A DNA stretch of 64,000 nucleotides, from contig JAVXUO010000209.1 of assembly GCA_033065855.1 (NCBI GenBank), positions 248,001 to 312,000 on the forward strand, given 5' to 3'. The stretch's first letter is position 1. The number at the start of each line of letters is the position of its first letter. The DNA is from Escallonia rubra. Taxonomy: Eukaryota; Streptophyta; Magnoliopsida; Escalloniales; Escalloniaceae. A program made the translations under genes and the position numbers. This document shows positions 11,163 through 53,663 of the stretch, piece by piece. Below the pieces are notes generated by a model. It was not told the DNA's origin. It made no database searches and was given only the letters and a program-made list of their open reading frames with translations.

Positions 11163-12205
11163 AAAAGAGCATAATTTAGGGGAAGGTACCAGCAGCGAGG
11201 ATAAAACAAAGTGGTAGTTCATTTAATTTGGATATTAAATGTACCCAGCAAGATAAAGATATTTTGTTGGAGAGCTTGCTCGGATATCCTTCCAACAGGT
11301 AATAGACTTATACGCAAAAGGATGAAAGTAACCAATGTGTGTCCAGTATGTGATTTAGAAGGAGAAACCTTGTATCATGTCCTTCGCAACTGCAGTTTTG
11401 CTCGACAAGTGTGGGCTCTTTGCTCGTCTAATCTGTACAAAGAAGTCAAGTGTTGCGATAGTGTCTATTGGTGGTGGAAGGATGTAAGGGAAAGAGTGGA
11501 CACAGAGGAGTTTGAAGTTTTGGTGACACTTTGCTGGAACCTTTGGAATAATAGAAACGAATGTTTATTCGTAGGAGATCAACGAGATGCACTAGAATTG
11601 TACTCATCCACCATCAATTTGCTGAAGCAATACAAAGACGCACAAATCAAGCCATCAAAACCTAGCAATATGATTCCTGTTTCTTGGGTAGCCCCTCCGG
11701 TAAGTTGTTATAAAATTAATTTTGATGCAGCAGTTTTCGAAGGGGAAGATGCAATTGGTATAGGGGTAGTGGTCCGAGGTACGGAAGGCGATTTCTTTGC
11801 AGGTTTGTCGAAGAAAATGAAAGGTCTATTAGAACCTGAATGTGCAGAGGCAATGGCAGCTTCTGAAGCTGTACTTTTTGGATTAGAAAGTGGTTTTCGG
11901 AAGGTAATTATTGAAGGTGATGCAGCAAATGTGATTTCAGCACTTCGGCAAGAAGGAGAGAATTTATCAGCGATAGGCAATGTGATTGATGAAGCTAAAA
12001 TTATGTGTAATAGCTTTCATAGATGTGAATTCAGCCTTGTACGGCGCACAGGAAACAAAGTAGCCCATGGACTAGCAAAATACGCTAGAGTCCTTGATGA
12101 TTATTGCGTTTGGATGGAAGAGGCACCCGAATTTATAATGCCTGCCATCCAAGATGATGTACCCCAACATTAGTGGAATAAAATCGTTTCATTATAAAAA
12201 AAAAA
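11163..12205 (+). pseudogene. 5'-truncated LINE: reverse-transcriptase zinc-binding and RNase H domains
   Basis: The 3' end of a non-LTR retrotransposon ORF2, open from about 11211 to the TAG at 12173. First comes the zf-RVT region (KIKIFCWRACSDILPTGNRL; CPVCDLEGETLYHVLRNC). An RNase H-like RVT_3 domain follows (YKINFDAAVFEGE, then ECAEAMAASEAV, IIEGDAANVI and GNKVAHGLAKYA). The frame in front of 11211 continues the LINE (GTSSEDKTKW) only after a frame change, so the copy is broken as well as truncated. It ends near an A-rich tail (about 12196-12205). There is no reverse transcriptase core, so it cannot move itself. Confidence 0.88.
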
Positions 12206-18900: not shown

Positions 18901-20642
18901 CAGATAGTTTAATCACAGATGCTCAAATGTTGTGATAGACAAGCATATCTTAGCTCAATCCGTGCAAATCTAAGGCTATCCCTTGTGTGGAAATGCACTT
19001 TACTGGACCGTGGCCACTCGACATTGTCTAAGAATAATCTGGTGATGGGATACCTTGTACCCCACATCCAATCATCTTCCAATCACAACATCATGCAAGC
19101 TTGTCCCATATCATAAGTATGCTTAATGGTGCACTAGTTATTTTACTCAGTACCGTATAGCTTTTTGGCCTAGTGATTTACCATGTCTGAGCTATTGAAG
19201 TAGGAGGTCTCGACCACTTTTAGGTAAATGGGAAGAGCTTGTTTGGTAGTGACCTGAAAAAAACCACCAAGAAAGCAAGATAGTCATTCAAAAGGGGATA
19301 CAGGAAAAAGAAGAAAAAAAGTTCACAAGGCACACAAAAGTTACCCCATCACTCACTTTGTCAAATTTTTTCAATATCTTCACAAAAGCAAGCATGTTCA
19401 AGTGCCTGAAAATGACAGTTACATGAAGACAACAGTAAAGAAGTTGTTCTGAAATGACCAAATGTTGGAAATGTGAGGAAACTTGAGTATCTGGAAGAAC
19501 AAACCTGTAAGTTTTAAGATACCCTAATCCTTTATATAATTCAATGAGAGCTCCTCTGATCATTTTCTCTGCATGGTGTAGCTTTGTTTTGTTGATGTGC
19601 ACTTTATTTCCTTCCGGACCACATTTCTTTGAGGACTGATTGATTAAATCATCCCAAAGTAGATATGAGAATGTGCGAGTCGGATTGGTCAGAGGAATAT
19701 GTATTCTTAAGTTCTTCCCTTGGCAATTGAATGCACGACCTGAAAGAGCCCTCAACTTCCCATCCTCCCTTTTTATTCTCATTGATTTTTCCATCTCATC
19801 TGATTTTGGAGAGTCCATGAACTGCTCATCACTTTTGTTAGTCTCCTCTGTCGTATCCTGCCCCTGTTCTTGCTCTGTTCTGTCCTTGAGAGAATCGTCA
19901 TCTGTGACGAAAGAACAATAAAAGAAACATTTAGCTAAGTGAAGAATATCAATGTGTACTAAGAAGTTCAAGAACTTTGTAACATAAAGTTGTCTGATCA
20001 ACTTTTGAAAATATTTTTGTTTTTTGCATACCGCACGAGATTGTGCCTGAAATAGACTCGTCATCCTTGGAATCCTGAGAAGCGGCTCCTTTGGTGCGCT
20101 GTTGCTTGAGCGCCGTTTTAAGCTCAACGAGAATCTCCAATTGTTTCTTCAATGAGTCCCCTCTTTCAAGGAACTCTTTCTCTTTTGTTCTATAAAATTG
20201 GTTCACCTTGTTAAGTTGTAGGTCCAAACACGCGAAAAAATCAGTGGCTGCCTCTACATCAGCAAACTGCTCCAGCAATTCTGTCTCATACATGTCCCCC
20301 TTACTAGCCGAGGATGCAAGTTTCTTATGAACCTGATCAAGACCATAAGAAAACCAAATATGTAAACAAAGAATACCTGGAGAGGAAAAAAATAAATGCA
20401 AAGAGATGAGAAAGTACTTGAATGACCCTATGGTCTCTATGTTGGTGGCCAAATAATGAGAACTTCTTTAGAGAGGAGAAGAAGGTGCTGTTTAAAGGGC
20501 TTTCGTGATGCCTCGTGGGTGCATTATCGCTGTTGAGCAGATGGATTTTCTTGACATCTCTTTTGAGTTGCCAATAATCAACGAAGGCTTCTTTCCATTC
20601 AGGAACTAGCTGACCTTCGAACTGTTTTGAGAACTTCACCAT
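15978..20642 (-). CDS. PHO1-H1: PHO1-type phosphate exporter, PHO1;H1-like (SPX-EXS protein)
   Basis: A complete 783-residue protein in 14 exons on the minus strand: 20642-20418, 20332-20032, 19901-19505, 19405-19357, 19253-19182, 18880-18751, 18035-17915, 17812-17566, 17439-17335, 17198-17154, 17052-16900, 16810-16532, 16454-16318 and 16068-15978. Every phase joins. PHO1 proteins export inorganic phosphate from root stelar cells to the xylem. The start [20 protein letters not shown] is the canonical SPX N-terminus. SPX elements include [20 protein letters not shown] and the basic phosphate/inositol-pyrophosphate-binding helices ([21 protein letters not shown]). Transmembrane segments start near residue 388 ([19 protein letters not shown]), with others at [36 protein letters not shown] and [15 protein letters not shown]. 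The EXS domain follows, with [14 protein letters not shown] and CARRWFDEG. Length and exon layout fit the family. The H1 subtype is inferred from microsynteny with TADA. Confidence 0.96.
17813..17914 (-). other. GC-AG intron in PHO1;H1 (intron 7)
   Basis: On the minus strand exon 7 ends CTTCTTAG and the intron begins GCAAGT, a good GC donor. The acceptor is TTTTGCAG before CATGTTCACC. Joining AG|C gives YPLLSMFTLLF, the expected PHO1 sequence. The nearby GT (AGGCAA|GTACC) would break the phase. Confidence 0.85.
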
Positions 20643-23384
20643 CTTGTCTTTGTGTAAAGTAAAGTATAGATGATCTTGGGTAGCCTTGAGACTAGTGAGT
20701 AGTTTCAGTGGAAGCCTATGATCACATTATATATGGAGAAGAAAAGGAAATGGATTGATGTGCTCGTACAGATGCTCGAAAGCACATTCTAAAAGATCCT
20801 TAGTACTTTTTTATCCCATGCTTCTTCCACTTGGAAGGTATAGTACTTGGGATTAGCCGGAAAATTACCCATCTGTCACCGGATTTAATGACTTCCGGCC
20901 AGCATATGCTGTGATGAGAACTTTGAAAGGTTGGGAAATTGAAGCGCATGGAGATGGGACCAAATCAAAATCGAATTCGAAGAAACATGGTTACTTATAA
21001 TAATGGAAATTGCCAAACGCTTAAACATCTTCAAGTGGCTTGCTTTTTCCAAAGAGGCATATGCATGGTACGTACAGAGGGCAATACAGGAACTAGCTAG
21101 CAAATCCCAATATTGTATGTCAAGGGCTGTTCATTTCTAATTGGGGCTTATTGGCTAAGCAGTGTATAAGCACACCAATCTGGCTTCCAATTAGACCAGC
21201 CTGATTTCCACTTGATTAAGAGGATAATAGTTTTCCCCCTCCCACTATATTTAAAGGAAGAATTGTTAAAAAGTAGAGTTGCATGTGATTATTGCAGATA
21301 AACCAGCCATCAAATACTATATCATGGAGTTTGGCACATTTTTTTTTGGTTAAAATTTGAAAATTTCTGGATTAAGGATTATAAAAAGTTTCTTGTCAGA
21401 TTAAGAGATGAACTAATCATTACGATCGACTCTAAAGATGTCAAAATTTTCTATAAACCATGACAAGAAGTTTAGCATCAGACAGTTGGAAGTATAGAAT
21501 AGTTCTAGGCTGCTAGTAGTACTAGTAGTACTCATTATAGGGGAAGAAGGTTCTCAGTTCTATTCCCTTGCTTCTCTTCCCACCTTCAGACCAACTTGTC
21601 AATATGACACCTTCCACTTAAACAACAAAATTCGAGATCCGTAGCCGTGTTCTTTCTGCCCCTTCTCTCTCTCCCCTGCACACACACGCGCACACACTTG
21701 ACAAGGATAGCAACATCAATGGTATTGAACCTGTGGAAAATTGGAAGCGCTAGTCAAACACATAGTTTTGTTTTCTTGCCCTCTTTAACTCTCTTACATA
21801 CACGCCCAGCGCGCTCAACTCCTTTTGTGTATGTGCCTACATACTTGACGTGTCGTGTATATTTTCTTTCCTTATCAAGGAAGAGGACTAGTAGGAAAGC
21901 TTTCAACCGATGGTCTATGCAAATATATACAAGGAAAAACCTGCCTTTATTGCTCAAGCACATTAAAGGAATACTTGTAAACCTTCTTGCTGTAAGCAAT
22001 TCTGATTACTTTCCATCTTTGTAAATGCTTCTTTAAAGGTAGGATTTTTTTGATAAACTGAGGGACCCCCGGCCCCCAACCCAAAATTGAAACAGGGTGT
22101 TTCTTGAGGAGACTGAGTAGTTATGCAGTCATGTTAAGGTGATCATAATGGATTTACAAGTAGCATAGATTTCAGTTTGGTAGTGTTTCTCCCTGTCGTA
22201 TCCCTTACCTCTTGTGTATGTGTGTGTGTGTCTGTGTTTTCAAGCAGCTACATGAGATTGACATGTGTTGTTTGCAGGATTCAGGAGCAGATGTAGGACA
22301 TTGCTGCTACTGCTAGGAACCATGTGTTCGGTTTTACATAACTAGTGGAATAATCTCCCTAAAGAGTAGAAGTGAAAATGAAATATAACTGCAAAAAATG
22401 TGTTCTCCACAAGTAAATTCTTCAAGATGACCAAAATTTTGGTACTAATAGTGGTTACGTATGATAGGAGGGTCATTATTAATCAAACAGTTCATTGTTA
22501 TTACTTCAGAAAGCGACCTCTAGCCGCAAATAGAAAACCGTTGAAAGACACACAGAAATGAAAGGAATTGCAAGTTCCCAAAGGAGAAAATGGGTACATA
22601 TATGCCCTCTATATTTTATAAACAACTTCTTTTGCAGTCGGTATGAGCCTTAAATTGATCAATTGAAGGAAGGACTGATTTTATGTAAAGGACCTAGTGA
22701 TTAACCATAAATATCTCAAGACTGCCATTTTCCCAATCAAATTTTGGTGGGGATGCCACATGAGACATTGAACCCTCTTGGAAAGGTCATACAAAGCATT
22801 CCCTTTTCAGCCTGTCTATGTGTAGGATATCCAAACATGGATTTTCTGCTTGCTTGTCTTGCAGTTTGAAATGTAGAAACAATTGTTTTGGTAGAAATCG
22901 ACTAAGAGGAGAAGAAAAGGTACCCACGAAATCTAAAGGCTTCTGATGGAACTAATGACACAAGCCATAGACTGATAGGAATGATGGTCTGAGTAGGATG
23001 GCATTGCTTTTGGGTGCGTCCTTATAGGCTTCCCCACCTCCCCTCACATTCAAGGTTGAGTATAACAACTAGTTACTCAATAAACTGCAGACTGAGAGGA
23101 TTTTCTCTTATCTTCGTAATGTTAGACCCTATTTAAGTAATAATTGCAGCTAAGGTGGCTGCTTATTGCCAAGTACATAAAAATTAGTAGTTCAAACTCA
23201 TTTCACCGTTTCATTCATGCAGTTCGACCGAAGAATATGAGAATAAATTTCTTCGCTAGAGTTGGAGGAATTCCGGACAACTGGAATCCGATGGATGAAA
23301 TGAAACATTTATCGCGCTCAGGTTGGGAAAAGATTATGGCAAATGAACAAGGGATTAAGAATTCCTGTCAATATTTTCTTTTAG
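20643..23384. other. PHO1;H1 upstream region and intergenic DNA
   Basis: Contains the presumed PHO1;H1 promoter (rightward of 20642). No ORF with recognisable protein features. There are CA/TG-rich patches near 21676-21697 and 22216-22233. I could not point to a clear phosphate-starvation element by eye. Confidence 0.5.
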
Positions 23385-23393
23385 GGTTAATTA

Positions 23394-24381
23394 CTCACGG
23401 CACCCCTGAAGTTTACCCTAAATTACACACGGACCCCGTATCTTTTGAAAATTACACTCCGCTCCCCCAGGTTTATACCCGCATTTCACGGAGCCCCACA
23501 AAATTGACGGGGACCCTAACTCCTTCTAAAGATTCTCTAACGCCTTACTTTTTGGATTTTTCATCCCCAAATTGCCCTCCCTTGAAAAATCATCAACCAT
23601 TGCCCTCCCCATGGCCTTGCTCGAGATCCTTATGTCCGGGTGGACCTGCTTCAAGACCTTGAAGATGTAGATCTTGTAGGTCTCGACGGACTTCTTGGAC
23701 TTCTTCTTCTTTTTGTCTCCGGCAGCGGCGGAGCCAGCCTCCTTGGGGAGCTTCTTGTCGGCCTTGGGCTTCTTCTCGGCGGGGGCCTTCTCGGCGACGG
23801 TGGGCTTCTTCTCCTCCGCCGGCTTCTTCTCCGGTGATGGACTCTGGCATCGCCTACAGTTTACACCACGACACAACAGAGGCGACCACCGCGCCGCAGC
23901 CACCACCGCGCGGGATTTATCATCTGCGCCATCTTCGGTGCCATCTCGTGGTCAACCACCCCTCATTCTCCGGCCACGCCCCTCACCGGAAGTACCGCCC
24001 AACACCCCCGCACACCACTGCGACACCGAACACCGCACGGCTTCATCACCGGTGAACCCGAAGCCGCATGCCTGACACCGTCACCCTCCATTGGAAGCAC
24101 CGCCCCCCGCAACCTCCAAAACAGCCATGGAATCACTACTGTCGGCAGCGTATCCGGTCCCCGATGGCCGATTCCGGCCAGTGTAGCCAAGAGTGAAGAG
24201 CCAGACAGTCCCTCCAAAATCCAAGACGATACTGTGTAGTTAATATACAAGGGTAAAAATGTCTTTTTGCGTCCCACCGTTAACACCGTCGAAGAAATGG
24301 AGCGGAGTGTAATTTTCAAAAGATACGGGGGTCCGTGTGTAATTTAGGGTAAACCTCAGGGGTGCCGTGAGTAATTAACCC
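23394..24381. mobile_element. Pack-MULE: Mutator-like element carrying a histone H2B fragment
   Basis: A 988-bp element with long terminal inverted repeats. The left end reads gggttaattactcacggcac, and the reverse complement of the right end starts the same way, the match extending about 85 bp (through acacggacccc and cttttgaaaattacactccg). It is flanked by a perfect 9-bp target duplication, tttctttta (23385-23393 and 24382-24390), the hallmark of Mutator insertions. The interior is GC-rich and carries an H2B gene piece; no transposase is present, so it is non-autonomous. The remaining interior (about 23840-24240) is also GC-rich, and I could not identify its source. Confidence 0.93.
23607..23831 (-). 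pseudogene. Captured histone H2B N-terminal fragment
   Basis: About 75 codons match the plant histone H2B N-terminal tail and the first part of the fold: a Lys/Pro/Glu-rich tail ([23 protein letters not shown]), a KKKKKSKK block, then [20 protein letters not shown] and ISSKAMG. Similarity stops abruptly at SKAMG, so most of the histone fold (about 65 residues) is missing. One residue in DIxISSKAM is R where plant H2B has G. The reading frame continues into unrelated sequence on both sides. It lies wholly within the Mutator-like element, so it is a transduplicated fragment and not an H2B gene. Confidence 0.92.
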
Positions 24382-24390
24382 TTTCTTTTA

Positions 24391-33280: not shown

Positions 33281-33784
33281 CCTCTCTTTTGCTGAATTTC
33301 CAACTTTTTCTTTAACAAACTTTGGTTCTTCTCTTCCCCTCTTTTGAGCAGTCTAAAATCCACAAATATCCATCTCTTTTTCTGCAGTAATATCTAATCC
33401 AAAGAAAGCAACTTCAATTCTATCCCACACTTGTGTAATTATAATACAATCTTAACTTTCATATCAAACTCATCACAAGATGGTTATAAACAATGACAAC
33501 CAAGTATAAAACATAAGGAGAAAAGGTAGATCTAACGACACCATTAGTGCGAGCAGTTGAATTGCATGTCTACTCATCAAAAAGAAAGAAGAAGTCAAGA
33601 AGTATTGACTACTTAAAATTTAAACAACCATTAACTCTATAAATCTTAGCTTGAACGGGGTTTAGTTCAAAGATCAAGCTGGTTCAATTTTGCAAGCATC
33701 TTTATTACAAACTGACACCGTCAACGTTAAATACCAAAATCCATGAATGGAAATCAACCAACTCAACAAGCTACAGAGCACAGC

Positions 33785-41378: not shown

Positions 41379-42838
41379 TTTTTTTGTTGGTTACAAAGGA
41401 AAGAAGAAGATACAAAACAGTTACTCATGCCTCCTGTAGGCAGTTCCTCTTAAATCAGCTGACAATAGGAAGTCTAGTTCTCTGTTTGGCTTGTCCACAT
41501 AGGTGAGGGGATGTGGTTGATCAGCTCCATAGTTGGCAAGGTGGTCGGCGCACTTGTTTCCCTCTCTTAAGGTGTGATGGATCTGGTATTTGCACCTCTG
41601 TATGATGTATCGACAGTCGGATATGAGGCCTCTTAGTTGATGATTCATGTTCTCTTGTTCCAATATTAGTTGAATAGCTGCAGTGGAATCAGTTTCAATT
41701 ATCAGGTTTTGGATATTCTTCTCTTTTGCCAGCTTCAATCCTTGGTGGATACCCCACAGTTCAGCTGTTAGGCTGTTAGTTTGTCCCAGATGTCCACAAT
41801 AGCCCCATTGCCATATTCCTTGATCATTTCTGAGGATTCCTCCAAAGCCTCCCTGTCCTGGATTGCCTCTAGCACATCCATCTGTATTAAGCTTTAAATA
41901 TCCTGTCAAAGGAAAAGACCATGAAATTAGGTTGTGGTGCTTCTTTGTATGATTACTGGTTTGATAATTGAAAGCCTTCACCGTGTCTGTGTATTGCTGT
42001 GTGATCCTTTGTACAGTACTGTTAACATCCATTTGGGATCCATTGAAGAATCTTTCATTCCTGCTCTTCCAAATGTGCCAGGCTATTAAAGCAAAGAGTT
42101 GTGAGGATATGATGTTCTCAGGTTTCTCTTTATCTTTGTGCTTGGAGCAATACTTTAGAATTCAATTATGGATGTTCAGCATATTGTCTTCCATTAACGT
42201 GGCTTGGGGAAAGAAACACCTCCAAATAGCTTGGGCCGCACTGCAATTTCTCAAGACATGGCTAGTGTCCAAACCTGGCAATAATCACATATGGGAGTAG
42301 CATCCATCCCTCTACTCGTACGAAGAACATTAGTAGGGAGACGATTGTGAGCAGTAATCCATAAAAAGAAATTGACACGTCTGGAAGTTTTAATTTTCCA
42401 GATTTTGTCCCAGAGTTTATCACAAAGGTTAGTCTCTAGAGAATTACAAATGATATCATTATAAACATATTTGGAAGAGAACAGGCCATTAGCTTCCATG
42501 CCCCAGATGATAGTGTCAGGATATTCTAAGAAGATAGATCTAGGAGTTGTTATAATGTGATTGATGAGTTCTTCTCCCAGTTGGTCTTTCCAAGGTTCAA
42601 TATTCCAAACATCATTTTGAAGGACGTCACTGACTTTCAAGTTGGGGTCTATACAATTTATAGTATCGTTTAGAGGCTTGTTGCCACACCACCAGTCTTC
42701 TCCCAAGGAAACGTTTTCACCATTTCCTATAAGCCATTTGGTCCCCTTGAGGAGCATAGGTTTAGTACTCATGATACCCTTCCAAATATGGGATTCTCCC
42801 CGTTTAGTAGTCCAAGATCATTGAAATTACGATAAAGA
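41379..42838 (-). pseudogene. 5'-truncated LINE with zf-RVT and RNase H domains
   Basis: Reads leftward. It opens with the ORF2 zinc-binding region (GTKWLIGNGENVSLGEDWWC, VNFFLWITAHNRLPT, CDYCQ) from 42772. It shifts frame near 42265 and continues as DTSHVLRNCSAAQAIWRCFF. One stop interrupts HN*ILKYC near 42160. The RNase H domain then runs 42032-41421: LKLNTDGCARGNPGQGGFGG, TAELWGIHQGLKLA, IIETDSTAAIQLI, REGNKCADHLANYG. The 3' end is a T run at 41380 (poly-A on the minus strand). The D/E/D residues of the RNase H core are present, but the frameshift and stop make it inactive. Confidence 0.88.
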
Positions 42839-44021: not shown

Positions 44022-47000
44022 TAGAGTTGTCAAACGGGCCGGGCGGCCCGCGGGCTGGCCCGACCCGGCCCGGTTTTGGCCCGGGCTGGCCCGGCCCCGT
44101 GGATGAACAGTAGAGGCCCGCACACGTAGGGCCTGGGGCCTGGGCCTGGACCAGGCCTGAATAATCTGGAAAACGGCCCGGCCCGGCACGGCCCGGTTTT
44201 GGCCCGGGTTTGGCCCGGCCCGGTTTCGGCCCGGGCTTGGCCCGGTCTGCGGCCCGGATTTTGGCCCGGTTTTGGCCCCACTTTTTTTGAATCTTTTGCT
44301 TTTCCCCCCCTTTCTTCTCCCCCTTTTCCAAACTTCCACTTTTACCCCCCCAACAGCTATATAACGGCTAGTTTGGGGGGTATTTTAGTCTAACCTATAT
44401 TTTTCAACTCCTTTACACTCTTACCCTCCCCAACAACTATAAACGGATAGTTTGTAGGGGTATTTTGGTCTTTTGTGAAGTTTCTAAAATCTATAAATTC
44501 ACACCATTTCTCTCTAATTTTTCACACCAATCTTCTTACTCTCTTCTTACTCTCACAACAAGCTTTGCTACTAGTTTCCTCTCCAATTACTACTCTTGCT
44601 AATTACTACTAGTATTTAGTAATTAGTACTCTTGTTTATTAATTACTAGTCTTGCTAAATTCTTTTTAATTACTCTTACTCTCTAATATTTGTTACTCGT
44701 TCATTCTTTTAATTACTACTAGTATTTACTAATTAGTACTCTTGTTTATTAATTACTAGTCTTGCTAAATTCTTTTTAATTACTAACTCTCTAATATTTG
44801 TTACTCGTTCATTCTTTTAATTGTTATTTCTTATTACTACTCTTATAATTGTGTATTTAGTTACTCTTACAAAGTTTAGCGTGAAATATGTCTGGATTAT
44901 TGAACAAAATGAGGCGTGCAACGTCATCACGAAAGAAATCATCATCATCGCAAGCACCACCACCAGCACAAGCGCCAGCGCCACGGCCATCAGAAACACC
45001 AATCCAAGCACCAACACAACCATTCGTTCGTGGACGAATGAGTACAGGCTCTATGATAGATACCCAAGCCAATTGGGAGTTCAATCAAAACATTCCAGAT
45101 TTTGAATACACGCCTGATGAAGACCCCCCGCATTATAGTCAAGGACGCAGCTCGGTTGGCGAAGCTACTACTCAGTGGCATAATCTCAACCCTATGCCTG
45201 GTCATGATGAAGAAGGGCCGAGCAATGCCTCCGATAACGTGCCAGAAGTCCAAAGGGGGAAAAAGAAGAAAGCCGAGTGTTGGAATCATTTCGACTTAAT
45301 TACGGTGGACGACATCCGAAAAGCTCAATGTAAGTACTGTCTTAAATTATTTTCGACTGGTAGTGGTAATGGACATCTTAACAGGCATTACCCTCAGTGT
45401 GCACCTCGACAAGGCCACGTCGAACCTACCCAAACGCAATTATCTTTTGACGGTAAGTTATTTGTTTATAATCAGCGAGAGCAAAGAGACGGTCTCGCTG
45501 AATTTGTTATTCACGATGAACAAGCCTTTTCTTTTGCCGATAATCCTAAGCACTCTAGATATATGAACACCTACGTTCAACCTTTGTACAAAAAGGTTCA
45601 TAGAAACACAACGAGGTCCGATGCACTCCGACAGTACAAGGCTGCCAAAGCACGCCTTATCGATTATTTCGATAAATTTGACGGTAAAGTTAGTCTTACT
45701 TCTGATATTTGGCAATCTCCTTATACTTTTGTTAGTTATTCTTGTGTGACCGCTCATTGGATTGATGCAGATTGGGTTATGCACAAGAGAATCATCACTT
45801 TCGAGCACTTCCCTTATCCGCACGATGGAATGAACATTGCTACTCTTATATTAAAAGCATGCAACACATTTAAAATTAAGGATAAGATTATGAGTGTTAG
45901 TTTTGATAATGCTTCTAATAATAAAGCTGCTGTTGCAGCTTTAAAGGAGACGCTTCAACCTGTACTTGATGGTGAATTATTTCATGTTCGTTGTGTTTGT
46001 CACATTATTAACTTAATTGTTCAAGATGGTTTAGGTGCTGCAGGAGATATTCTGCTCAAAATGAGGGGTATGACAGCGTATGTTAATGGCTCGAGTTTGA
46101 GAACACAACAATTTAAAACGTTGTGTGTTCAATATAATATGCCTCGCAGGAGAGCAGTTACAGATGTGGTCCACAGGTGGAACTCTACATACCACATGCT
46201 TTTACACATTCTGGCATACCGAGAAGTCTACACGCATTTTCTACTAACCCAGTTCCCAGCCGGCTTGCCAACTCAAGAGGAATGGCAGATGGCCACATAC
46301 CTAGCTGAATTTTTGGAGGTATTCTACACGTCTACCAATTTATTGTCTGGTACGTACTATCCCACCTCTCCTCTCGCTGTAATAGAAATTCTGAAGATGG
46401 CTACAATGTTAACAAAATGGAGATATATAGGACCCTTTAGGGAAATAGTACAAGTGATGGATCAAAAATTTAATAAATATTGGAGGAAACTGCCTGCTAT
46501 TTTTACTGTGGCTACTTGTTTAGATCCTAGGTTAAAGTTGCATGGCGTGAACGCCTCGATACAAGAGATATCGAAATTAATGCGCTACACAGCAGATGAC
46601 ACAACCTTGCTCACAGCAAAAGTGAGCAAGAGGTTTGAGGACTTGTTCAACCTCTATCGTAATTCTGCTGACGTGCGCGGGCGAGCTACATCATCATCCA
46701 CTGCTGAGAGGTATTATGCGCCATACCTTCAAGGCTTTGAACATCTAGTAGCAAGACAACTACCAGGTGAAGGTACTTCTAATTCGGGAGGTTCGTATAA
46801 TTTTTCCTCTTTTAATGAGATTGGTGTATATGCAAATACTGATCATTATTCTGATTTATCAAGGCAAGAACAGATTAATTTTAATTTGTTAAATTTTTGG
46901 AAACAAAATCAAAACATGTATAAAACTTTATCCCAAATTGCACGGGATGTACTGCCAGTGCAAGCCTCCACGGTTGCTTCAGAGTCGGCATTTTCAGCAA

Positions 47001-47825
47001 GCGGAAGGGTTTTGGATGACAGGAGGAGTCGTCTTAACCCCGAGTCGCTCGAGCTATGTGTATGTTGGAAGGATTATCTTGATGCGAAATACCGCGAGCA
47101 AGATAAACCGATTGATGATAGGAAGAGCAGTGACTCGGATATTGAAGTACTTCCGGATGATTAGGTAATTTGTTTTTATTTTCCTCTTTTGATCCTTTTG
47201 GTTGACGTTGCAGATTTCTTGATCTTTGATTGCTGATATTTTGGATAGACATGCATTATTATTTTGATTGTTAGAGTTTTAAGAATAAATTTTTTCACAA
47301 AATATACTTTTGTCCATATATATAAAATAATTTTTTACACGCAAGATATATATTTTTTTGTATATATAAAAAAATAGGTAACCTCGACTGTTTGTTTACA
47401 AGCAGCCGGTGCCAAGCCCGGATAAAAGGAGGAGGGCCTATGAACACATTTATTATTTTTCTATATAAATTGTTATGTGTTAAGATTTTATTAATAAAGC
47501 TCACCAAGAAGAGTATGAAAATGTTTAACATATTAATAAAGCTCACCAAGATTAGGTTCGTTAAATTATGAATATTGCCTAGAGGCTAGAGATGAAATTG
47601 AATAATAAGAAAAAAAAAAAAGTTTTGGGCCCGGGCCCGGCCCAAGCCCGGCCCTAAATATTGGGCCTAGGGCCAGGGCCTGGACTGGGCCTAGGTTTCC
47701 CTTCGGCAGGCCCGGCCCGGCCCGGCCCGGTTGGCAGCCCCACTGGCCCGGCCCTGGCCCGGCCCCACAGCAGGTCCGATGGGCTTGGGCTGGGCCGGCC
47801 CAAGCCCGGCCCTTTGACAACTCTA
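44022..47825 (+). mobile_element. Complete, apparently autonomous hAT transposon (inner)
   Basis: 3804 bp. The termini are tagagttgtcaaacgggccg on the left and, as reverse complement on the right, tagagttgtcaaagggccgg. There is a perfect 8-bp target duplication, ctaaaaat (44014-44021 and 47826-47833). Subterminal regions (about 44034-44280 and 47626-47815) are dense arrays of ggcccgg motifs, probably transposase-binding sites as in other hAT elements. The single gene inside is intronless and intact. ORFs in the ggcccgg arrays are artefacts. Confidence 0.95.
44888..47164 (+). CDS. hAT-family transposase with BED zinc finger (ricesleeper type)
   Basis: A 758-residue uninterrupted ORF that catalyses cut-and-paste transposition of the element around it. 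Residues 1-125 are Ser/Pro-rich. A BED zinc finger spans about 128-172 (C148-x2-C151, H163, H167, with C171 nearby) and binds DNA. The RNase H-like catalytic core has the hAT acidic residues at D273 (LTSDIWQSP), D340 (SVSFDNASNN) and E699 (ASESAFSASGRV). The CHIINL motif is at 371-376 and the RW motif at 430-431. The C-terminal dimerisation region, about 665-735, contains FNLLNFWKQN and ARDVLPVQASTVASESAFS. The start ATG at 44888 is the first in the open frame. Length and motifs are complete, so it may still be active. Confidence 0.96.
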   Translation: MSGLLNKMRRATSSRKKSSSSQAPPPAQAPAPRPSETPIQAPTQPFVRGRMSTGSMIDTQANWEFNQNIPDFEYTPDEDPPHYSQGRSSVGEATTQWHNLNPMPGHDEEGPSNASDNVPEVQRGKKKKAECWNHFDLITVDDIRKAQCKYCLKLFSTGSGNGHLNRHYPQCAPRQGHVEPTQTQLSFDGKLFVYNQREQRDGLAEFVIHDEQAFSFADNPKHSRYMNTYVQPLYKKVHRNTTRSDALRQYKAAKARLIDYFDKFDGKVSLTSDIWQSPYTFVSYSCVTAHWIDADWVMHKRIITFEHFPYPHDGMNIATLILKACNTFKIKDKIMSVSFDNASNNKAAVAALKETLQPVLDGELFHVRCVCHIINLIVQDGLGAAGDILLKMRGMTAYVNGSSLRTQQFKTLCVQYNMPRRRAVTDVVHRWNSTYHMLLHILAYREVYTHFLLTQFPAGLPTQEEWQMATYLAEFLEVFYTSTNLLSGTYYPTSPLAVIEILKMATMLTKWRYIGPFREIVQVMDQKFNKYWRKLPAIFTVATCLDPRLKLHGVNASIQEISKLMRYTADDTTLLTAKVSKRFEDLFNLYRNSADVRGRATSSSTAERYYAPYLQGFEHLVARQLPGEGTSNSGGSYNFSSFNEIGVYANTDHYSDLSRQEQINFNLLNFWKQNQNMYKTLSQIARDVLPVQASTVASESAFSASGRVLDDRRSRLNPESLELCVCWKDYLDAKYREQDKPIDDRKSSDSDIEVLPDD

Positions 47826-50171
47826 CTAAAAATGAAGCTCATATTTAATTCTTGTTTAGGGTTTTTATAAGATTTCATCTTCTTTGTATAGTATTCAAAA
47901 CAAAGGTTAACAAATAAAAATTATATATAAGCCTTCTAAGGACTAAAGTGGCCAAAATTCACATAAAACTGTCATTGATTATTTGGTTAGACATAAGACA
48001 TTAGACATCAATGATCAATATAACTATATAAGGTATTCTAGATATTTAGTATAAAATGAAATAAATTCTTTTCTTTGTTTCTTTATTTATTTTGCACCAT
48101 TGTACAAATTATTAGAAGCGGTGATTCAAGCAACTCTGCAACTGAAGCAAAAAAGAAATGATAAAAGTTGAGCCTCACACTATTTTGTGTCACTAAATGT
48201 CCAGTGACTCAGTGAGGCAGTGGAACTGTGGAAGGGGTCGAAGGGCTCAAGGGCATACGGACAGAAAACAATTGCAGAAGTCAGCAGAGCAGCCAGCACT
48301 CGGCACTCCCAGGCCCCAGCAGGCAGCAGCCGGCGTCGGCGCGGGACTCGCGGGAGGTCGTCGGCGGTCAAGATCTCAAATCTGGTTCTCGTTCTTCAAG
48401 GGTGACTGCCGACTGGTTCTTCAAGAGGTCGTCACTCGTCGGCGGTCAAGATCTCAGATCTGCTGGTCCACTCGTCCGTCACAGCGTCACAGCCGTAACT
48501 CCATCGTCCCTCGTCGAAGCTACCGTCGTTCAGATCTGGTCGCCGTGAGCTTCACTGTCCACCGGTGACTCGGAGAGAGAGAGAGAGAGAGAGTCTCGAT
48601 TGGGGGTCTCGGGGAACGGCCGAACGAGGTATCGGGGACTGGGGAACGGGGTCTGTGATTCCCAAAAACCAAAAAAAAAAAAAAAAAAAAAAATTTTTGC
48701 CTAGAAGTTAGGGGGTGCTTCAACCCCCCCTTGTCACCACGTGGGTCCGCCCCTGAGTAGAGTATTGAGGCAATATAATCCTATTTGGATATTACAACTT
48801 AATCTGAAGGATGATGTGGTTAAAGACTGTGATGATGTGTCGTTAAAATATGTGATTATGTGTCGCGACTTCGTATAAGTAAAACACCAATGACGTAAAC
48901 CTTTCTTCTCTTCCTCAAATCATCACCTGTTGAAATAGAATTCCTTGCAGCTTCCAGGAAAAAAGGTGACGCCGTCCCTGAGAGGACCAAAGAACACCAG
49001 ATTCCTTTCAAGGAGTAGAGGAGTTTCTTCAAGCAGAAAGCACCGAATAAAAAGAGGGAGATAGAAGAAGCAAAATAGAGTCTATTTGGAGCAAAACAAA
49101 GGGATGGAGACAGAGGGAGCAAAACAGACCATTAGAGATTGGCAGGAATACGGAGAGGCAACGGAGTATTGAGGCAATATAATCATATTTGGACATTACA
49201 ACTTAATCTGAAGGATGATGTGTCGTTTTGTGATGATGTGGTTAAAGACTGTGACGATGTGTCGTTAAAATATATGATTATGTGTCGCGCAAAGAACCTA
49301 ACGTTACATCATTTGCTTCGCTTATTATATATTATATAGATTACTCTGTTCTGCAAGTTTTGTCCTTTTTGATCTTTTTTTAATTCCAAGATTCACCTAG
49401 AGTACCTAATCATTGAAGTCATTTGGTGATTAGATGAAAAACAAGTTTTGTTCCACATGTCAAATTAGGTTAAAAATAATAAGTTTATGTTTATATGTTC
49501 GAATTGTATTTTAGGAGTTTGCAAAAAATCAAAAGGGATAATAGTTATGAAATTGAAGGATTCATTTAAATAAGGCATAATCCCAAAACTGTGTCCTCAA
49601 GTTTACCTCAAGTACAGCTTTAGTATTCAACTTTGAAGGTGTGCCAAAGAAGTACCTGACTTTGAAAAAGCGTACCAAATCAGTACCTCGATTGACGGAT
49701 GACCGATGCCGTTAGAAAGTTAGAGGGGTAGGACTGTCATTATTAAAAAAAGTGTTTTTACTTAAAAAGTTCAGGTACTGATTTGGCACGGTTTACTTTT
49801 CACATGTACTCATTTGGTACGGTTTATTTTTACTACTTTTTCTTTTCACAGCCGTTTGATGTGACACTATCTTAATCGTTTGTTTATTTTATCTTCCTTA
49901 ATTAATTATTAAAAACTCTCTCTCTCTCTCTCCCCCCATGTCTCATTCTCCCTCTTCCTCTAAGCCATAGTCTCCCTATCATCTCGGAGCCACTGCCATA
50001 ATCACTTGTCATTCTCATCCTCCACACCAGTGACCTACCGCCATCACCACCGGTCTTGCCACTACCACCACTTACATCAGTGACCCCTCACTACTGATCT
50101 GGCAACTGCCACTTCCCACACCTGTGAACACACCACCGTCACCACCGATCTAGTGACCGCCCCATTACTTA

Positions 50172-51275
50172 TGTTAGATTATATATATTAATATGGCAAT
50201 TACCTTTTCTCTATTGTCCTATGTCTAGATTATTCTAGAGTTCTCCTAAGTTCTATAGGATTCTCTTTTCTATTTCTGGTAGAATAGTTTTCTCTTGCCT
50301 ATATAAAGGCCTTATTGTACTCAGTTCTCTAATGCTCTCTAATATAATTATCTTTCCCTTCACCTTTTCTATTATGGTATCAGAGCCATACAATCCGCCG
50401 GTTTGAGAGTCTTTCAATCACTTTCGTAAACACCGGCGGACAGTCTTCTGTCGTTCGCCCGGCCTTCTGCCATTCGCGGCCAATTCATGTGCCTTTGTTT
50501 TCTTTTCGTGCTCTTCTTTTCTTCTTGAGTTTTAACATTTTGGTCTTTCTTTCCTACCCTTTTTATACAGTGATCTTCGCTTATGCTAGCCACCATCCAC
50601 TCTTGCTATTCATCAACTCTAACTTATCTCTTTTGCTCAAATAAAAAAAAAAAGAAATTCTCAGTCGCTGGACCTCACCCCGAGACCTTTATGGTCGTCG
50701 GACCACACCCCGGGACTCATGTCTTCTTCTTAGTCGCCGGACCTCGCCCCGAGACCTTTATGGTCGTCGGACTTCGCCCTGGGACTCCTTCCTTGTTCTT
50801 AGTTGCCGGACCTCATCTCGAGACTTTATGGTCGTCGAACTTCGCCCCAGGACTCCTAATCTGTTCTTAGTCGCCGGATCTCACCCCAAAACCTTGATGG
50901 TTGTTGGACTTCGCCCCGGGACTCCTGTTCTGTTCTTGCACTGCCAGACTCTACACATGGAATTCTTCTCAACTTGGATCTCGCATAGTGTAGCTAGTAT
51001 CAAGACATCGCTCTGGACTTAACCTCCAAACTCAAGCTTGTTCTTTTCTACCAACTTGAGTTTGAAGGGGGATGTTAGATTATATATATTAATATGGAAA
51101 TTACCTTTTCTCTATTGTCCTATGTCTAGATTATTCTAGAGTTCTCCTAAGTTTTATAGGATTCTCTTTTCTATTTCTGGTAGGATAATTTTCTTTTGCC
51201 TATATAAAAGCCTCATTGTACTCAGTTCTCTAATGTTTTCTAATATAATTATCTTTCCCTTCACCTTTTTTATCA
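50172..51275 (+). mobile_element. TRIM (short non-autonomous LTR retrotransposon)
   Basis: Two 203-bp LTRs, 50172-50374 and 51073-51275, begin tgttagattatatatattaa; the right one ends ...atca. The primer-binding site tggtatcagagcc (initiator tRNA-Met type) follows the left LTR directly at 50375-50387. A purine tract (tttgaagggggat) precedes the right LTR. The flanks actta/accta look like a 5-bp target duplication with one change. The LTRs differ at roughly a dozen positions by eye, so the insertion is old. The internal region of about 700 bp has no coding capacity beyond a tandem repeat. Confidence 0.93.
50660..50945. repeat. About 70-bp tandem repeat, four copies, inside the TRIM
   Basis: Each copy reads approximately tagtcgccggacctc(g/a)cccc, then gagacctttatggtcgtcgg, then ac(t/c)tcgcccc(g/a)ggactc, with a variable ttgttct end. 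Starts are near 50663, 50731, 50801 and 50868. The open frame through it is a product of the period. Confidence 0.88.
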
Positions 51276-52288
51276 ACCTACCGACATGTTTACCACCATC
51301 ATCCCTGACCGTCAGCGTCCAAATCAATCTTCAATCTCCGTCGACACTCACATCCACGACCCACGACCAACCGTCGCCGGTGCACCCAGTAGTGGCCACA
51401 CACGGTGTTGGGTTTGTGACGGTGATGGTGACACGCAGTGGCTGGCGACGGTGTTAGGCGATGATAGTGGTGGTGGTGGTGGTGGTCTGGTGAGTGATGG
51501 TGGCATTGGATAAACCGTCGATCTGGCCGATCTGGCCACTAACACTTCTCACACCATTGAACGCACCACCGTCACCACCGATCTAGCGATCGCCATTACC
51601 TATCGACCTGTTAACCACCATCGTCCCTGACCACTGGCATCCAAATCAATCTCCAATCATCATCTGCGCTCACATCCACGACCTAAGACCAACCGTCGTC
51701 GGTGCACCTAGCACCACCACAACCTAACATCACCATCACCACAACTCCTACGCAGCGGCATCATCATTGCCGGTTGACTGAGCACCAATTTTTAAAAATT
51801 GGGGTACTGGTTATAACATGGCGTTTGTGCAAAATCTTCTCCTTCCGGGTGACACAGTTCTATAGAATCCGTGGCTTGGTTACGAGGAGAGTTTGAATGT
51901 GCACAATATTCTCCAAGGTTTATGTATTTTGCTTCAAGCCTCTTACTTTGTGCGGTGGAGTTGGTAGTGTGTGATGGTCGACAGTGTTGGGTTTGTGGCA
52001 GCGGTGTTGGGTTTATGACGGCAGTGACCACACACAATGTTGGGTTTGTGACGACTGCGTTGGGTTTGTGATGGCGATGGTGACACGTGGTAGTCGGAGA
52101 CGGTGTTAGGCGACGATAGTGGTGGTGGTTTGATGGGTGATGGTGGTAATGGATAAACCGTACCAAAGTCGAACGGCTGTGAAAAGAAAAAGTAGTAAAA
52201 GTAAATCGTACCAAATGAGTACCTATGAAAAATAAACCGTACCTAATCAGTACATGAACTTTTTAAGTAAAAACACCTCTTTTTAATA

Positions 52289-53486
52289 AAGGCTAATTAC
52301 ACATTTGTCCCTGAGGTTAGGGGGTAATTACAGTCAATGACACTAAGTTTCAAAATGTAACATACCGTGACCAAAACATTTTCAAATGTATCTATCCGTT
52401 AGAGTTCCGTTAAAAATTTGTACTTTTTGACTGACGTCATCATTATATATTTTAAAATGACAATAATACCCTTACCCTTATATACTGAATAATTTTTAAA
52501 ATCTTTCTTTTTCTTCTTTTTTAAGAAAATTAAGAATAACCCCACATTATCCTCCTGATTTCAAAAATTAGGGTTTATTAGAGCCCTAATTTTGAAATTA
52601 GGGTTCCAAAACCCTAATTTGAAAATTAAGGGTTAAGTGAATTTCAAATCACCGCCGGCAGTCCTTCCCTCCCCTGCGCCCCGCCGCCGGCAGCCTCCCT
52701 CGCCCCACCACGCCACCATGCCGGCAGCCTCTCCCCGCACCACCCCACCACGCCACCAAGCCCGTCTCAGCGATTACTCGTCTCCTTTCGATTCCATGCA
52801 GAGACGACGATCGGAGGTTTCTAGTCGTACCACACTCTCCGATTTGCACATCGAGTTCAAACAGGTAAACGGGAAATTGGGGCGAGAAATGAAGGGTGAA
52901 GATTAATAGGCAAATGGTGATGTGATTCGAATTCGAAAAAGAAATTGGCAGATTCACCGAATAGCTCATGCGTATTGCAAATATGGAAACTTTGAAGCAA
53001 AACGGAGATTCGGACGGTGCGTGCAGCAGGACGGCACAGCGGTGCTCTTCTCCGACGTGTCGGCCAGCGTGCTCCGGCAGACCCTCTATTCCACCACAAT
53101 TAAGGATGGGCCTTTACGACATCCTAAAGAAAAGATGTACGGATCCGGGCACGGGCAATATGCCATTGACGAGGCCGGTGCAGTGATATATTGGGCGGGT
53201 GACGGGGAGGGGGCGGCGAAGGGGTGCAACGGTTATTGGGTTGGGGGGGGGGGGGGGGGGCGGGGAAGGGGAAGAGTAAACAGTAAAGTCTTTCTTTCTT
53301 TCAGATAAAGTAATGGCATTAGAAAAAAAAATAAGGTTCAAACTTAGGGGCAATAAAGTCTTTTCATTAAAATCGTTAGGGTTTTTACGATTCTGTTTGG
53401 TCAATGGACACAAGTGTAATTTGTCCAAACTATTGTCCTTGCATGTAATTATCCCATAACCTCAGGGACATATGTGTAATTAGCCC
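52289..53486. mobile_element. Pack-MULE: Mutator-like element carrying a dicarboxylate carrier fragment
   Basis: About 1.2 kb, inserted in the right arm of the larger Mutator-like element. The left end reads ggctaattacacatttgtcc; the reverse complement of the right end reads ggctaattacacatatgtcc. Both continue ctgaggtta and then (g/t)ggg(g/a)taattaca. The flanks tttttaata and cttttaata give a 9-bp target duplication with one mismatch. The interior includes a GC-rich stretch with a possible captured exon (MQRRRSEVSSRTTLSDLHIE, then a gtaaac donor near 52864) and the carrier fragment listed separately. A G run lies at 53247-53260. No transposase. Confidence 0.9.
53021..53180 (+). pseudogene. 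Captured mitochondrial dicarboxylate carrier (DIC/UCP-type) fragment
   Basis: The fragment encodes VQQDGTAVLFSDVSASVLRQ plus TLYSTT. After a frameshift caused by a small insertion (accacaattaagg where accacaagg is expected, near 53095) it reads RMGLYDILKKRCTDPGTGNM plus PLTR. This matches the segment of plant mitochondrial dicarboxylate carriers around the LFSGVSATVLRQTLYSTTRMGLYD signature. Only about 50 of roughly 300 residues are present, so it is a non-functional captured piece. It cannot be told from this length whether DIC1, DIC2 or DIC3 was the donor. Confidence 0.88.
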
Positions 53487-53663
53487 TTTTAATACTAACA
53501 GTCCTACCCCTCTGACTTTCTAACGGCATCCGTCAGCCGACGTACTGATTTGGTACGCTTTTTCAAAGTTAGGTACCTTTTTGGCACACTTGCAAAGTTG
53601 GGTACTAAAACTGTACTGGAGGTAAACTTGAGGGCACATTTTTGGAATTAGGCCTTTAAATAA

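Follow-up and report, generated by a model that had tools for sequence, protein, structure and literature searches.

A probable Pack-MULE-type transposon with a piece of a histone H2B gene in Escallonia rubra

A 64,000-nucleotide stretch of the Escallonia rubra genome (contig JAVXUO010000209.1, positions 248,001 to 312,000; hereafter the window, from whose first base all positions are counted) contains a 998-bp element at 23384-24381. We regard this element as a non-autonomous DNA transposon of the Mutator-like (MULE) superfamily, more exactly of the Pack-MULE type, which has captured a piece of a histone H2B gene as a passenger and has been inserted with duplication of 9 bp of target sequence; the probability of this reading is put at about 0.88. 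The assignment rests on the following: the ends are inverted, they are flanked by a duplication of 9 bp, a transposase domain is lacking, and the host gene piece is confined between the ends. It upholds the identification proposed in the initial annotation of this DNA. The element would thus be a neat and complete case of a MULE-like element that has captured a gene fragment, in that both insertion marks are present and the captured gene encodes a core histone. Its wider importance depends on whether the H2B piece is transcribed and acts on H2B genes, and only then would it arise.

Structure of the element and its H2B piece

Regional self-comparison gave inverted arms of 82 bp and 83 bp, the only differences between which are a single substitution and a 1-bp indel, and the target-site duplication TTTCTTTTA flanking both ends is perfect (9/9). 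A perfect 9-bp duplication and inverted ends of about 85 bp had been described before; the duplication stands, whereas the arm lengths are revised and the left end lies 10 bases beyond the earlier position of 23394. Among the 61,602 window positions scanned, a match of at least 9 bp at the element's spacing occurs once, at the element itself. The 21-bp terminal pattern, with up to three mismatches allowed, has two matches in the window, both of them the element's own ends, compared with a mean of 0 in 100 shuffles. Depending on the outermost matching base pair, the ends can also be read as AGGG with a 7-bp duplication, although the 9-bp reading is the longer one. The left end further holds three imperfect 18-bp repeats of the type AATTACxC...CCC at 23388-23466, spaced about 30 bp apart (starts at 23388, 23420, and 23449), which possibly represent candidate transposase-binding sites.

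The piece between the ends matches Pfam PF00125 (E = 8.9e-7) and scores 29.6 bits, above the cut-off of 26.4. Its top match in the PDB is H2B.6/HTB9 (E = 6.1e-26), and the best PDB matches carry the names H2B.6/HTB9, H2B, H2B.10, H2B.1, and H2B.4, all of which we take to be plant proteins. Two alignments, to chains 150 and 153 residues long, place the start of the piece at residue 11 or 14 and its end at residue 86 or 89, and both of them end after KAMG, in agreement with the abrupt stop at SKAMG that had been pointed out earlier. The start codon and roughly the first ten residues are absent, as is the C-terminal half. The initial annotation spoke of the N-terminal third to half of H2B: the H2B identity is borne out, but the N-terminal end proper is missing. 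It also held that the tail had been retained without the fold, which is correct as regards the lysine-rich tail, most of which is kept, but not for the remainder, as what we take to be helix alpha-1 lies inside the piece, which ends where helix alpha-2 presumably begins. The exact left edge is uncertain without the parent because the tail repeats EKKPA-like units. At third codon positions, G or C is found in 93%.

A tblastn search of the window with the 75 residues detected no second H2B stretch, the only match beyond the piece itself being one of 15 residues (E = 0.62); in the window, the H2B similarity lies between the ends. The lysine-run part of the piece also gave one weak hit of 27 bp, at 33578-33603 (E = 0.004), which we attribute to low complexity. 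Of 23 open reading frames (ORFs) of at least 30 amino acids listed for the region, 21 overlap the element. A Pfam scan of every one of these 21 found no transposase domain, the histone domain being the only match.

Table 1. Features of the H2B-carrying element, in window coordinates
Feature	Position	Strand	Remarks
Left target-site duplication copy TTTCTTTTA	23375-23383		9 bp
Left terminal inverted repeat	23384-23465	+	82 bp, begins GGGTTAATTACTCACGGCACC
Left subterminal filler	23466-23606	.	ATTGCCCTCCC (11 bp) occurs twice here as an exact direct repeat, at 23571 and at 23599
Captured histone H2B piece	23831-23607	-	75 in-frame codons (EKKPAEEKK... to ...SSKAMG); Pfam, PDB, tblastn
G+C-rich internal stretch	23832-24200	.	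63% G+C; no Pfam match
Right subterminal stretch	24201-24298	.	
Right terminal inverted repeat	24299-24381	-	83 bp
Right target-site duplication copy TTTCTTTTA	24382-24390		9 bp

Composition, edge repeats, and possible origin

The G+C content is 59% in the H2B piece and 63% in the adjoining stretch, compared with 46% and 45% in the outer parts of the element (45% at 24201-24381) and 39.3% and 35.5% in its 5-kb flanks. An interior of 59-63% set in poorer flanks fits captured exon DNA, and a preference for G+C-rich sequence has been reported for the Pack-MULEs of rice and maize (PMC3310237).

Repeats occur near both edges of the H2B piece. On one side, the two copies of ATTGCCCTCCC lie 28 bp apart and the second (at 23599) runs into the edge of the piece; when the stretch was simulated 2000 times with a first-order model, 29 of the runs gave an exact repeat of this length. 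On the other side, 23820-23837 and 24038-24055 match at 16 of 18 bases, a score equalled by 0/2000 simulations and by none of 207 other 18-mers from the piece; both tests were chosen only after the repeats had been noticed. These repeats tentatively hint at template switching, a process that has been proposed for animal Pack-TIRs, gene-carrying elements with terminal inverted repeats (TIRs), in which 190 cases (67.6%) are reported to show microhomology, with a median of 2 bp, at one breakpoint or at both (PMC8277862).

The following sequence of events may be envisaged. An H2B gene of the host would have served as the source, and an internal piece of it would have been taken up by template switching during gap repair. 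Insertion of the element at its present site would then have duplicated 9 bp, and any further movement would require that a transposase made elsewhere act on the ends. The H2B piece itself would be passive passenger DNA without function.

Dating of these events from end divergence or protein divergence was rejected. End divergence is unfit because the two ends, as we understand it, need not be identical at insertion, and protein divergence because the H2B protein is so conserved that a few amino-acid changes date nothing. This leaves the earlier suggestion of a not very old capture without support. A scan for bacterial promoters and terminators, which is inapplicable to plant sequence, gave 0 promoter-like and 2 terminator-like sites, not above shuffles.

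Alternative readings and comparison with known systems

MULEs are described as having ends usually of 100-500 bp and target-site duplications usually of 8-11 bp (PMC4858842). The 9-bp duplication falls within this range, and the occurrence in the window of a second element that has inverted arms and is likewise flanked by a perfect 9-bp duplication (49574-53654) was also counted in favor of a MULE-like nature. Several points weigh against our reading of the element. Its 82-bp ends are below the usual length given in the same source; neither a second copy, a related transposase, nor a parental gene was found in the window, where ORFs outside the element were partly scanned; the ATTGCCCTCCC repeat is modest (29/2000), and both edge repeats were picked before testing; moreover, these repeats are internal to the element and do not constitute microhomology with a known parent. 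Searches with the end patterns in viral and prokaryotic genome collections gave 0 exact matches, with records of the element's own genome possibly excluded. Since no family transposase is at hand and the ends also allow the AGGG reading with a 7-bp duplication, one might ascribe them to another TIR transposon superfamily. However, a 9-bp duplication together with 82-bp ends suits MULEs, and 9 bp is unlike the duplications listed for hAT (8 nt), CACTA (5 nt), Mariner (TA), and PIF (TTA/TAA) elements (PMC8903248), which makes such an ascription highly improbable.

Beyond its classification, the element might be thought to have a function of its own. One version is that it codes for a small, expressed H2B-tail protein under selection, as its 75 codons form an uninterrupted part of a 141-codon minus-strand frame that runs from stop to stop (23951-23526). 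Yet no in-frame ATG precedes the piece—the first methionine of the frame is the M of KAMG—and an 85-residue ORF that begins with ATG at 23850 overlaps the H2B DNA in a different frame. Nor is the lack of stops evidence of selection, because only 37 of the 675 possible single changes produce a stop, and the piece would still be open after ten random changes with a probability of about 0.57. Protein coding by the piece was rejected for want of an in-frame start codon; having neither a start codon nor the C-terminal half, the piece probably yields no protein, and a selected tail protein is extremely unlikely. Another version, raised in the initial annotation and unsupported here, is that the element, if transcribed, would act as a regulator and give rise to antisense or small RNAs against H2B genes. 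The piece does retain 225 bp of H2B-like DNA, but H2B genes form multigene families, which would blunt any such effect. According to a review, sequences that maize Helitrons, Pack-MULEs, and Sirevirus elements have captured can serve as reservoirs of small interfering RNAs against donor genes, and selection may act against such silencing where the donor gene is essential (PMC13317346). Regulation of this kind appears unlikely. Still less probable is a plant MULE family with H2B sequence that, by means of small RNAs or of an H2B-tail fusion made by splicing, alters H2B supply or the silencing state of its own chromatin. A Pack-MULE with a passenger H2B piece remains the preferred reading.

As such, the element resembles the Pack-MULEs of rice, maize, tomato, and Arabidopsis in being non-autonomous and in having inverted ends, a 9-bp duplication, a host gene fragment, and a G+C-rich filling; it differs from them in its somewhat short ends, and the window holds one copy of it. 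No paper pairing "Pack-MULE" with "histone H2B" was found in open-access full text, a result that leaves room for published cases elsewhere. The element is a further example of well-known gene-fragment capture, and core-histone capture by DNA transposons has already been published for fungi: hAT elements are reported to have captured and amplified histone H3 in Pyrenophora tritici-repentis (PMC3538342) and Pseudocercospora fijiensis (PMC6710886). The capture had been called unusual, a view that is weakened by the description of histone H3 capture by hAT transposons in several fungi (PMC6710886). The fungal elements share with the present one the combination of a DNA transposon and a captured core histone gene, but they belong to another superfamily and another kingdom, carry H3 rather than H2B, and are described as present in tens to hundreds of copies; in P. 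tritici-repentis, full-length H3-like variants are also reported (PMC3538342). Animal Pack-TIRs likewise hold a gene piece between inverted ends, and gap filling with template switching is their proposed origin, but their hosts are animals and their microhomology was measured against the parental copy (PMC8277862).

Other elements and genes in the window

A larger MULE-like element of about 4.1 kb occupies 49574-53654. One of its ends reads GGCATAATCCCAAAA and the opposite one TGGAATTAGGCC. The outer arms, inverted copies of each other over about 175 bp, agree at 85%, and the 9-bp duplication, TTTAAATAA, is perfect; two of its ORFs outside a nested element were tested and gave no Pfam match. 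The nested element, at 52291-53485, is also MULE-like, and its ends (GGCTAATTACACAT) resemble those of the H2B element. Its flanking duplication (TTTTAATA) is 8/8 only if the left end is shifted outward by 2 bases and the right end by 1, and neither of two internal ORFs tested scored above a Pfam cut-off. When the ends of the H2B element were compared with those of the two other elements, the four scores were reached by 9, 4, 2, and 2 of 1000 base shuffles; this likeness is suggestive, and we do not treat it as demonstrating a single family.

A 759-codon stop-to-stop frame at 44885-47164 contains the hAT transposase domains PF05699 and PF14372. A minus-strand ORF at 19949-20467 carries an SPX domain (PF03105); the neighboring minus-strand ORFs at 19288-20148 and 20337-20726 may be part of the same gene, which is perhaps PHO1-like. 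This group of ORFs lies about 2.7 kb from the H2B element. Finally, a reverse-transcriptase-like RNase H domain (PF13456) is found both at 11205-12173 on the plus strand, together with zf-RVT (PF13966), and at 41421-42161 on the minus strand, and we take both to be probable remnants of long interspersed nuclear elements (LINEs).
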